Assembly: GCA_030603385.1 (NCBI GenBank)
Contig: JAUVXW010000010.1
Location: forward strand, 34,737 to 98,736
Length of the DNA stretch: 64,000 nt
Reading direction: 5' to 3'
Origin: Promethearchaeota archaeon
GTDB taxonomy: Archaea > Asgardarchaeota > Lokiarchaeia > Sigyniarchaeales > SOKP01
Both the position numbers and the translations under genes were made by a program. The notes below the pieces were generated by a model, which was given only the letters and a program-made list of their open reading frames with translations, searched no databases and had not been told where the DNA came from. The first letter of the stretch is position 1; each line of letters opens with the position of its first letter. This document shows positions 13,669 to 52,946 of this stretch, piece by piece.

Positions 13669-14232
13669 TTAATCTAAATCATTATCTTCCAGAGGTTCAC
13701 TTTTTTTCAAATTAAGAAGATAAGAAATTGAGCTAATTGCCCCAAAGATTCCTTGTATGATTAAGGCTAAACAAATCAAAAATACAGCCAATAAATCATT
13801 GTATATAAACAAGAAAATAATTATAAAAATCCCTGCTAATGAAAATTTTATGATATATGAAATTTCGCTGAATAGGATTTTCCATACAGTAGATTTCTTT
13901 ACTCGAGACTCTAATTCTTTATGATATTTTGCTTCTCCAGCTTCTTTTATATACCAACTACCTTCTATATTATTGGCAAAAAGGAATACACTCCACCATA
14001 AAATAAAGAAGCTGAGATAGAAGTCTAATGCCCCTAAAACTACTAGGGGTATCTGCATTAAAACCATTCCTTTCCATCCAATACGTTTAGCCAATTTATT
14101 TGTCTCTAATTTTAATTCTTTCGACACATACCGCGTACTAAGTAAATCAAGTAATCGCCCTATAATTGTAATTAAAATATTTATTAAATACTGGTACCAC
14201 TGAACTTCTTGGAGGATTAATTGAAATATCAT
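13669..14232 (-). CDS. multi-pass membrane protein, unknown
   Basis: A 187-residue protein with four or five hydrophobic helices: around YLINILITIIGRLL, a long one around MQIPLVVLGALDFYLSFFIL, and two near the C-terminus (FSLAGIFIIIFLFIYND, LAVFLICLALIIQGIFG). There is a short charged central loop and an acidic tail. No transporter or enzyme motif recognised. It converges on the C25 protease gene, with 11 bp between stop codons. Confidence 0.6.
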   Translation of the reverse strand: MIFQLILQEVQWYQYLINILITIIGRLLDLLSTRYVSKELKLETNKLAKRIGWKGMVLMQIPLVVLGALDFYLSFFILWWSVFLFANNIEGSWYIKEAGEAKYHKELESRVKKSTVWKILFSEISYIIKFSLAGIFIIIFLFIYNDLLAVFLICLALIIQGIFGAISSISYLLNLKKSEPLEDNDLD

Positions 14233-14392
14233 ATTCTAGAGCTTATCTTAGTTTACTCCTTTTAAATTTTGCCTTTTTCTATGAAAAAGTTTAATTACTA
14301 GTCTTTATTATTTCTCCTTACTCATTACCTAATAAGAAGGTATTTACGTTGTAAATAACCGTACTTATTAAATGGTAAACCCGTGGTTTTAA

Positions 14393-14600
14393 AACCACAT
14401 AAATGTACAACATTCAGTAAAGCGCCGGAAGTTAAACTATTAAGCGTTGCAGGATAGTACTGCAGTAAATAGTCTGTGGGAAACCTCAAACTGTAAGTTC
14501 GCTTACGGTCATGGTTTATAAGGATAATACCCGGTCCCATCTGAAAATCCAGCTTGAATCAAGGTGGATCGGGAACCCGGAAACGCTTATTTATGTGGTT
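14393..14600 (+). other. precursor stem enclosing the permuted 5S rRNA
   Basis: AACCACATAAAT at 14393-14404 is perfectly complementary to ATTTATGTGGTT at 14589-14600 (12 bp). Further inside, AAGCG at 14420-14424 pairs with CGCTT at 14584-14588. CCGG at 14425-14428 can pair either with CCGG at 14531-14534 (5S helix III) or, across an AAA bulge, with CCGG at 14577-14580. A 16-nt palindrome (14383-14398) overlaps the left arm. The layout resembles archaeal rRNA processing stems. Which ends are cut is unknown. The 14547-14569 segment is an additional hairpin (ATCCA/TGGAT and CTTG/CAAG) outside the canonical 5S. Confidence 0.65.
14421..14546 (+). rRNA. rrf: circularly permuted 5S ribosomal RNA
   Basis: The two halves of 5S rRNA occur in reversed order. 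First comes the canonical 3' half: CCGGAAGTTAAAC (helix III/II strand), AGCGTTGCAG, GATAGTACTGCAG (loop E/helix IV) and TGTGGGAAACC. Then CTGTAAG (14491-14497), TTCG (14498-14501) and CTTACGG (14502-14508) form a 7-bp helix I capped by a UUCG tetraloop where the normal 5' and 3' ends would be. Then comes the canonical 5' half: GGTCATGGTTTA, ATACCCGGTCCCATCTGAA (helix II, III, loop C). GTTTA of the second half pairs with TAAAC of the first (helix II), and CCGG pairs with CCGG (helix III). The new ends therefore fall in loop C. Exact ends are estimates. Confidence 0.85.
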
Positions 14601-14704
14601 AAACCTAATTTACTTCCCTTAAAGATATTAGATTTTGTTTAAAAATAATTTTTTTATGTGATCAATTATAAGTATATCATAATTAACAGTGGTAAATTGG
14701 AAAA

Positions 14705-15247
14705 ATGCCAAAAAAATATATAGTTGTTTTTAAAAGTATTGGACGAAGATGGTTCTTAATCCTTGTAATAATAATTATTATTATAGCAATTTTTAATCCA
14801 ATTGCAGCAATTTGGATGGCTGGAATAACATTAGTGATGTTTTTACTATCATATATTCCAAGACTCTTTTTCAAAAATAAACTCCACAGATTTATGAAAA
14901 AATTTTACAAGATCGAAGATGAATTGATTGCTAGAAAGCTTAAAAAACCTATTAAGAAAATCAGAGATGAGATGTTTGAATTATCTCAAAATCAAGAGAA
15001 AAAAAAAATGTTGATAGTATTTTTAAACAAACAGTACGTCTGTTACCATCAAGATACCATTAAAGCATTCAAGGAAGTTTACAATGAAGGTTATAGTGAA
15101 AAGGAAATGCTTGATAATTTGAAAAATTATAAAATTAATACTAGGCTAGAAATTAAAGCAATTCAAGACACTTTAATCAAACTTGATAGACTTAGTGAAC
15201 GGGAAATTTCCGTAAAAGAGCATAAAGAAAAACAAAGATTTGCATAA
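14705..15247 (+). CDS. membrane-anchored helical protein, unknown
   Basis: A 180-residue protein. A basic N-terminus precedes a strongly hydrophobic hairpin of two helices (residues ~16-57). The remainder is a charged, largely helical cytoplasmic domain (KKFYKIEDELIARKLKKPIKKI and onward) with coiled-coil character and a Lys-rich tail. No family recognised. It starts 104 bp after the 5S precursor stem on the same strand. Confidence 0.55.
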   Translation: MPKKYIVVFKSIGRRWFLILVIIIIIIAIFNPIAAIWMAGITLVMFLLSYIPRLFFKNKLHRFMKKFYKIEDELIARKLKKPIKKIRDEMFELSQNQEKKKMLIVFLNKQYVCYHQDTIKAFKEVYNEGYSEKEMLDNLKNYKINTRLEIKAIQDTLIKLDRLSEREISVKEHKEKQRFA

Positions 15248-52845: not shown

Positions 52846-52946
52846 GGGAGAGTGGTCTAGCTTGGTATGATACTGTAGGGTATTCTCTACAGCATGAATC
52901 TTGGTTTGGGACCAAGGGGCCGAGGGTTCGAATCCCTCCTCTCCCA
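52846..52946 (+). tRNA. tRNA-Pro (UGG), intron-containing
   Basis: Acceptor GGGAGAG (52846-52852) pairs with CTCTCCC (52939-52945), discriminator A. The anticodon arm is CTTGG-TTTGGGA-CCAAG (52900-52916) with anticodon TGG. Variable loop GGGCC, T arm GAGGG-TTCGAAT-CCCTC. CCA is not encoded. The D arm region GTCTAGCTTGGTATGAT matches proline tRNAs. A 27-nt intron interrupts the gene between positions 25 and 26. Confidence 0.93.
52872..52898 (+). other. tRNA-Pro intron at position 25/26
   Basis: A 27-nt intron containing CTGTAG...CTACAG. A bulge-helix-bulge is visible: bulge ATA, 4-bp helix TATG/CATG (one U-G pair), bulge AAT. Cutting two nt into each bulge joins GAT to TCTTGG, restoring the usual proline-tRNA sequence. 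The position is non-canonical for archaeal introns (37/38 is standard). Confidence 0.8.

Follow-up and report, generated by a model that had tools for sequence, protein, structure and literature searches.

A circularly permuted 5S rRNA gene of Asgard archaea and its predicted maturation into a circular RNA through a BHB motif

How can a 5S rRNA gene whose halves are exchanged yield a working ribosomal RNA, and where do the ends of that RNA lie? The question is raised by positions 14431-14582 on the plus strand of a 64,000-nucleotide stretch of Promethearchaeota archaeon DNA (the window), where the 3' half of 5S rRNA stands upstream, the 5' half downstream, and a UUCG-capped helix I between them. 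A sequence-only reading had proposed both the 3'-half-first order and the UUCG-closed helix I, and both are borne out: GAAGTTAAAC is found at 14428-14437, the remaining quoted 5S motifs (GATAGTACTGCAG, GTGGGAAACC, GGTCATGG and ACCCGGTCCCATC) are all present at the permuted gene, and CTGTAAG-TTCG-CTTACGG occupies 14491-14508. The coordinates then given, 14421-14546, end about 55 bases before the 3' end of the feature at 14600. As judged by a covariance model match and by covariation, the 3' half (14431-14497) supplies the 3' strand of helix II, helices IV and V and the 3' strand of helix I. The 5' half (14502-14582) runs from the 5' strand of helix I to helix III and loop C, with a predicted intron inside it.

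The swapped halves score as 5S rRNA. The covariance check proposed in the earlier reading was run in an equivalent form with model R1, built from 11 canonical-order Asgard 5S genes whose halves were exchanged in silico and joined by a GAAA cap; no permuted gene was included in its training set. R1 matches 14431-14528 on the plus strand with 39.3 bits (E 2.9e-7), the single significant match in the 64-kb window, and the runner-up reaches 12.1 bits (E 1.3). The permuted gene is not matched in normal 5'-3' order by the Rfam 5S model (RF00001), which gives no match in the window at its gathering score and none in 14200-14800 at E up to 10. On a chosen panel of 28 loci, R1 gives 26-75 bits for 18 permuted loci, 17 of them at 32 bits or more, and at most 29.5 bits for 10 normal-order loci, five of which had supplied R1 training sequences. 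One permuted locus (L215, 26.1 bits) ranks below the two best normal-order loci, L153 and L007, and the normal-order locus L002 has no R1 match. Elsewhere in the window, Rfam finds a tRNA at 52874-52946 (33.9 bits) that ARAGORN misses.

Compensatory change indicates that the permuted genes encode a working RNA. In an alignment of 60 natural permuted cores (A3), 86.5% of 1491 cells pair, versus 63.4% after shuffling, and the covariation score is 0.642 versus 0.204; none of 500 shuffles reaches the pairing or the covariation value. Changes on both sides of a pair account for 420 cells versus 133 in the shuffled data. Sliding the partners by one column lowers pairing to 44-50%, a control that favours the structure, which was drawn from A3 itself with one helix added by hand. 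Pairing is 99.2% in the self-closed helix I and only 68.2% in the hand-added helix (columns 18-24 with 57-62). Through the R1 match and these compensatory changes, both the sequence and the secondary structure of 5S rRNA, with helices I-V and the conserved loops, are recognized, and it is near certain that this is a permuted 5S gene under selection.

One alternative is that this copy is decayed or not expressed and that the genome has a canonical 5S gene elsewhere, absent from the bin. RF00001 finds no normal 5S elsewhere in the organism's own draft genome at E ≤ 0.001 or 0.01. Archaeal 16S was not found in this draft assembly (G000) and the assembly seems to be without rRNA genes, so a canonical 5S may be missing from the bin too. 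Such a copy is nonetheless extremely improbable, given the compensatory change across the 60 sequences and the four single-contig genomes (G004, G080, G101 and G143) that have a permuted match and no RF00001 match above cut-off; weaker RF00001 matches in G004, G080 and G101 overlap their permuted genes. Strong canonical copies in genomes with permuted genes (L002, L012 and L143; G013, G051 and G133) were rejected: they adjoin bacterial-type 23S and are therefore probably contaminants or organelle DNA, which also speaks against decay. L002 (G013:C68), a probable contamination, is a 23S-5S contig of bacterial type in an archaeal bin and contains a group I intron.

Permuted order is widespread in Asgard archaea. 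DNA resembling 14380-14620 occurs in 50 of 97 genomes, the organism's own included, at E ≤ 0.1, a threshold at which some matches are short and weak. A broader model, R2, rests on 38 sequences, including 27 natural permuted genes, and was partly trained on targets of the survey. At E ≤ 0.01 it finds a match in 121 of the phylum's 227 genomes, at least four of these matches being false. These four, G064, G066, G068 and G072 of family f2, were rejected as permuted; they carry normal-order genes that matched R2 through one half, so that at most 117 R2-matched genomes remain. Permuted order was read directly in the sequence at 94 loci from 21 families (f1, f3-f7, f9-f12, f17, f18, f20-f27 and f29), at least 29 families being numbered. 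These loci comprise the 92 used in the search for bulge-helix-bulge (BHB) motifs described below, 48 of which belong to f1, the family of the window's gene, with some sharing a genome, and two others, L214 and L215.

Normal order is found in five families without a permuted reading: f8, f15, f2, f19 and f13. RF00001 scores above cut-off in 64 of the 227 genomes, namely 43 of f8, seven of f15, six of f2, two of f19, one of f13, and G013, G051, G133, G123 and G106. The G123 locus (L220) matches RF00001, yet its sequence reads as permuted. Families f14 and f16 have no 5S match among the matches listed, and neither form is seen in 50 of the 227 genomes (of the 106 that R2 does not match, 56 have RF00001 over cut-off). 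An exact pattern scan of a species-genome collection returned 48 stretches, all Asgard: 43 from Lokiarchaeota or Lokiarchaeia, three from Jordarchaeia or Jordarchaeum, and one each from Odinarchaeia and Sigynarchaeota. The pattern is narrow, so its absence outside Asgard proves little.

Comparison of relatives places the break in the gene. The sequence-only reading set the new ends in loop C, and this part of its interpretation was rejected in view of relatives that lack an insert found in the window's loop C. Such relatives (e.g. L026) show CCCATCCGAACCCGGAA uninterrupted, and in many f1 relatives CCCGGTCCCATCCGAACCCGGAA leads to the outer stem with the insert absent. The downstream half therefore contains all of loop C and of helix III, and the break falls just 3' of helix III. 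The upstream GCG-CCGG, formerly taken for a strand of helix III, emerges by comparison as one strand of a BHB processing motif.

In archaea, the BHB motif consists of a helix of 4 bp with a 3-nt bulge on each strand, and each strand is cut after the second nucleotide of its bulge. The flanks of the window's gene have this form, AAGCG-CCGG-AAG opposite CCGG-AAA-CGCTT, with two 3-nt bulges and 4 bp between them. The outer helix pairs AAGCG (14420-14424) with CGCTT (14584-14588), and the central helix pairs CCGG (14425-14428) with CCGG (14577-14580), the latter also being the 3' strand of helix III. The bulges are AAG (14429-14431) and AAA (14581-14583), and the geometry predicts cuts at 14430/14431 and 14582/14583. 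If each bulge is cut after its second base and the ends are joined, the result is CCCGGAA|GTTAAAC, which is canonical 5S sequence. Outside the motif, AACCACATAAAT (14393-14404) is a perfect 12-bp complement of ATTTATGTGGTT (14589-14600), forming a long outer stem, and a small hairpin, GTAGC...GCTAC, lies between this stem and the BHB in f1 loci such as L046 and L040. In many loci, the window's among them, little or no inner helix follows the bulges.

Covariation between the two flanks supports this reading. The central helix of the motif changes across Asgard families with its pairing kept: CGTG stands opposite CACG in loci of f4, f9-f12, f17 and f18, and upstream CTGG stands opposite downstream TCAG in L018, L071 and L137. 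Other loci have CTGG/CCAG, CAGG/CCTG, CCGC/GCGG and further combinations beside CCGG/CCGG. In the expected register, all four central pairs form in 66 of 82 loci, and at least three outer pairs form as well in 55 of 82. When flanks are swapped between families, the corresponding values are 32.8% and 2.0% of 4820 pairs; own and swapped pairs were given an equal choice of anchors, and some f21 loci are mis-anchored. This test excludes six type B loci, which are broken within loop C, and one of type C, as well as three loci that had no anchor or too little flanking sequence. With distinct upstream sequences counted once, 50 of 66 have all central pairs and 40 of 66 also the outer pairs.

A search by pairing alone leads to the same place. 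Its top motif lies where it would give the canonical product in 63 of 92 permuted loci, a count that includes five f21 loci in which one A of the joint is replaced by U. In the other 29 of 92, the top-scoring strict BHB is off the canonical joint. Eleven of these misses are f1 loci in which the motif is weak or is outscored by the long outer stem or by chance stems. L015 is another miss, as is L139, which is truncated at the end of its contig; the rest are loci of f4-f7, f21-f23, f25 and f29. Relaxed forms of the motif or an extra hairpin are needed in f5-f7, f23 and f29 and in parts of f4, f21 and f25. L058, L059, L133 and L135 form three of the four central pairs, and the pairing search gives no clear BHB in L113 or L122. 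Taken together, these comparisons of sequence make BHB processing of a permuted 5S precursor likely.

The same evidence bears on the model of the earlier reading, in which a linear permuted 5S ends in loop C and is made without BHB splicing. The minimum-energy fold of the window precursor alone agrees with that model, the upstream CCGG pairing with the 5' CCCGG as the earlier reading had it. Against it stand the intronless relatives, in which the downstream half contains the whole of loop C and of helix III, and the covariation of the upstream and downstream elements as a BHB; the model is very improbable. The attendant picture of a ribosome accepting a 5S opened in loop C is superseded by the closed circle predicted from the BHB.

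Other breakpoints point to a similar product. In the type B loci (L020, L046, L049 and L052-L054), the gene is broken within loop C. In L046, L049 and L052-L054, the BHB GCG-CTGG-AAC / CCGG-TCA-CGC predicts the joint CCCGGTC|CCATCCGAACCCGG, again canonical; in L049 this is not the top motif. L020 has the BHB CTGG-AAA / CCAG-AAT. A third breakpoint, in the 5' strand of loop B and 5' of helix III, was recognized by eye in L015 (f3), where the strict search misses it. Such breakpoints differ in place and are predicted to give a similar canonical 5S, which argues for a circle made through the BHB.

The sequence that interrupts loop C in the window resembles an intron of the same kind. Extra loop C sequence is present in the window and in 17 other f1 loci fitting the search pattern, and is absent in many relatives. 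From the pairing search, the window's insert looks like a 30-nt BHB intron at 14546-14575 (UCUG-AAA-AUCCA...UGGAU-CGGG-AAC), whose predicted removal restores the intronless length and pattern in 17 of the 18 loci. When the register is moved by one base, the score is almost as good and one A too many remains; this version, with a circle of 124 nt, was dropped after the pairing search in favour of one of 122 nt. Insertions of about 30 nt, possibly extra BHB introns, also occur in the helix IV region of the permuted 5S of L032, L056 and L066 and in helix I of L059 and L068-L070.

With the intron removed, the circle predicted for the window is thus 122 nt long. For the 45 loci lacking known introns, circle sizes are predicted at 115-129 nt, in 38 of the cases at 119-123 nt, and 12 archaeal normal-order matches that span the 5S model measure 116-121 nt. 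The circular fold of the window product has helices I-III, with a local hairpin in place of the canonical helices IV and V; in the circular folds of L029, L046 and L061, helices IV and V are canonical.

The proposed maturation would begin with a transcript that spans both flanks. A predicted TATA-like promoter element (CTTATTAAATGG, 14364-14375, plus strand) has a comparable block in f1 relatives. Outside f1, 15 of 42 permuted loci have TTTATA no more than 90 nt upstream, versus 3.0 expected by mononucleotide shuffling. Thirteen of 16 such boxes lie 46-56 nt before the 5S core, a spacing that would put the transcript start near the outer stem. The tRNA-splicing endonuclease EndA would then cut the transcript at the two bulges, RtcB would join the ends into a circle, and the loop C intron would be removed likewise by BHB splicing. 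There is a good probability that the permuted 5S is cut at the BHB by this endonuclease and, with RtcB as the likely sealing enzyme, restored to canonical 5S as the 122-nt circle.

The organism's own genome encodes candidates for both activities, two EndA-family proteins (L072 and L073, on contigs C44 and C9) and one RtcB. L073 seems to lack a histidine that we take to be required for catalysis. Its apparent absence makes a two-subunit, heteromeric enzyme with a relaxed choice of BHB plausible.

Ligation may be questioned. If the bulges were cut and the ends left unjoined, the mature 5S would be linear and permuted, with its ends next to loop B. This outcome is distinctly unlikely, since RtcB is encoded, archaeal BHB cleavage is normally followed by ligation, and there would be no reason to keep a joint that restores the canonical sequence. 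Its precedent is engineered: a circularly permuted 5S joined into 23S rRNA functions in E. coli, and one strain survives with no free 5S (PMC7283268).

The joined circle might alternatively be reopened in the helix I tetraloop to give an ordinary linear mature 5S. Permuted pre-tRNAs are known to end in this way. According to a 2026 paper (PMC12918454), it is also commonly believed that circular 16S and 23S intermediates in archaea return to linear form. In the permuted 5S genes, however, the joint is a short hairpin loop on the almost fully paired helix I, a YNNG tetraloop in 71 of 91 measured loci (20 of 91 have another cap), and a conserved stable tetraloop would be unnecessary for a processing site. 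Reopening is unlikely. With helix I capped by a stable tetraloop, the BHB-derived circle would stay closed and may itself be the 5S RNA of the ribosome; a closed circular 5S in the ribosome is judged likelier than not. More broadly, it is somewhat probable that most Asgard families have a ribosomal circular 5S made from a permuted gene and require the tRNA-splicing machinery for its biogenesis, with linear 5S in few families and a second BHB intron in some genes.

Several known systems resemble parts of this scheme. Permuted mitochondrial 5S rRNA (Rfam RF02547, mtPerm-5S) was reportedly described by Valach and colleagues in 2014. There, too, the gene halves are exchanged, but the Asgard gene lies in a cellular archaeal genome and has a BHB joint and a tetraloop-capped helix I. 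RF02547 has no match in the organism's own genome, a weak negative since no control genome matched either, and none in 14200-14800 at E up to 10. Permuted tRNA genes, which Soma and colleagues are said to have shown in 2007 to mature through a circular intermediate, include BHB and archaeal cases. They share with the Asgard 5S gene a 3' half placed before the 5' half, flanks that form a BHB, and a circular product, predicted in the Asgard case. They differ in that the Asgard RNA is a 5S rRNA whose helix I is sealed by a tetraloop, with no reopening site seen.

Circularization itself is familiar in archaeal ribosome biogenesis. Archaeal 16S and 23S pre-rRNAs are circularized via flanking BHBs by endonuclease cutting and ligation (PMC12918454 and PMC8339473), the same steps as are predicted for the Asgard 5S. 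The 16S and 23S pre-rRNA genes stand in normal order, whereas circularization of the Asgard 5S would restore the sequence of a permuted gene. The 2026 paper (PMC12918454) describes ribosomes with circular 23S, and 5S processing in pure cultures of archaea without circularization. Circular 5S RNAs of H. salinarum were suggested to be degradation products (PMC12558985).

Joined ends and extra sequence also have parallels in 5S rRNA. In the engineered E. coli 5S, the native ends are linked in helix I by a 4-nt connector, as in the Asgard gene; that molecule was made in the laboratory, has its opening in loop C or D and is attached to 23S (PMC7283268), whereas the Asgard one is natural and predicted to be free and closed. 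The 5S rRNA of Halococcus morrhuae also carries extra sequence, a large insertion that is kept in the ribosome (PMC7530397), unlike the Asgard loop C insert, which takes the form of a BHB and would, by prediction, be spliced out. A literature search, with bioRxiv and most subscription papers outside its reach, found, among the papers listed, no report of an archaeal permuted 5S or of an archaeal 5S that is circular through gene order. One paper names a gap in finding 5S in some Asgard genomes (PMC8813620) and another records 5S genes in one Borrarchaeum and one Jordarchaeum genome (PMC9723677), the latter speaking against any simple view that nobody finds 5S here.

Some loci suggest how the gene came to be permuted. 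In one f2 genome (G066; L007, L021 and L023), three 5S genes of normal order form a tandem array with a spacing of about 374 nt. G146 has two permuted 5S in tandem, about 160 nt apart (L118, G146:C510), and the middle of L118 gives a weak normal-order match of 31.2 bits. In G106 (L213, G106:C117:8100-8600, minus strand), a normal-order 5S carries a short BHB-like intron exactly at the joint of most permuted genes read in sequence (CACG-GAA-CAGTC...GACTG-CGTG-AAA), and splicing would give the same sequence as the permuted joint. G106 has no R2 match, and its assignment to f23 rests on a bin. The permuted gene probably arose from tandem 5S copies, possibly with a BHB intron, that lost their outer halves.

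Possible stages of gene permutation are on view in the tandem copies of both orders (G066 and G146), the joint intron of G106 and the several breakpoints. Permuted order would explain why standard tools fail on 5S in some Asgard genomes, an explanation that is testable. Two questions can be put to the permuted genes as a natural system: why does 5S exist as an RNA of its own, and are its ends important? If the proposed maturation is true, tRNA-splicing enzymes enter the assembly of the large ribosomal subunit in the archaea thought to be closest to eukaryotes.
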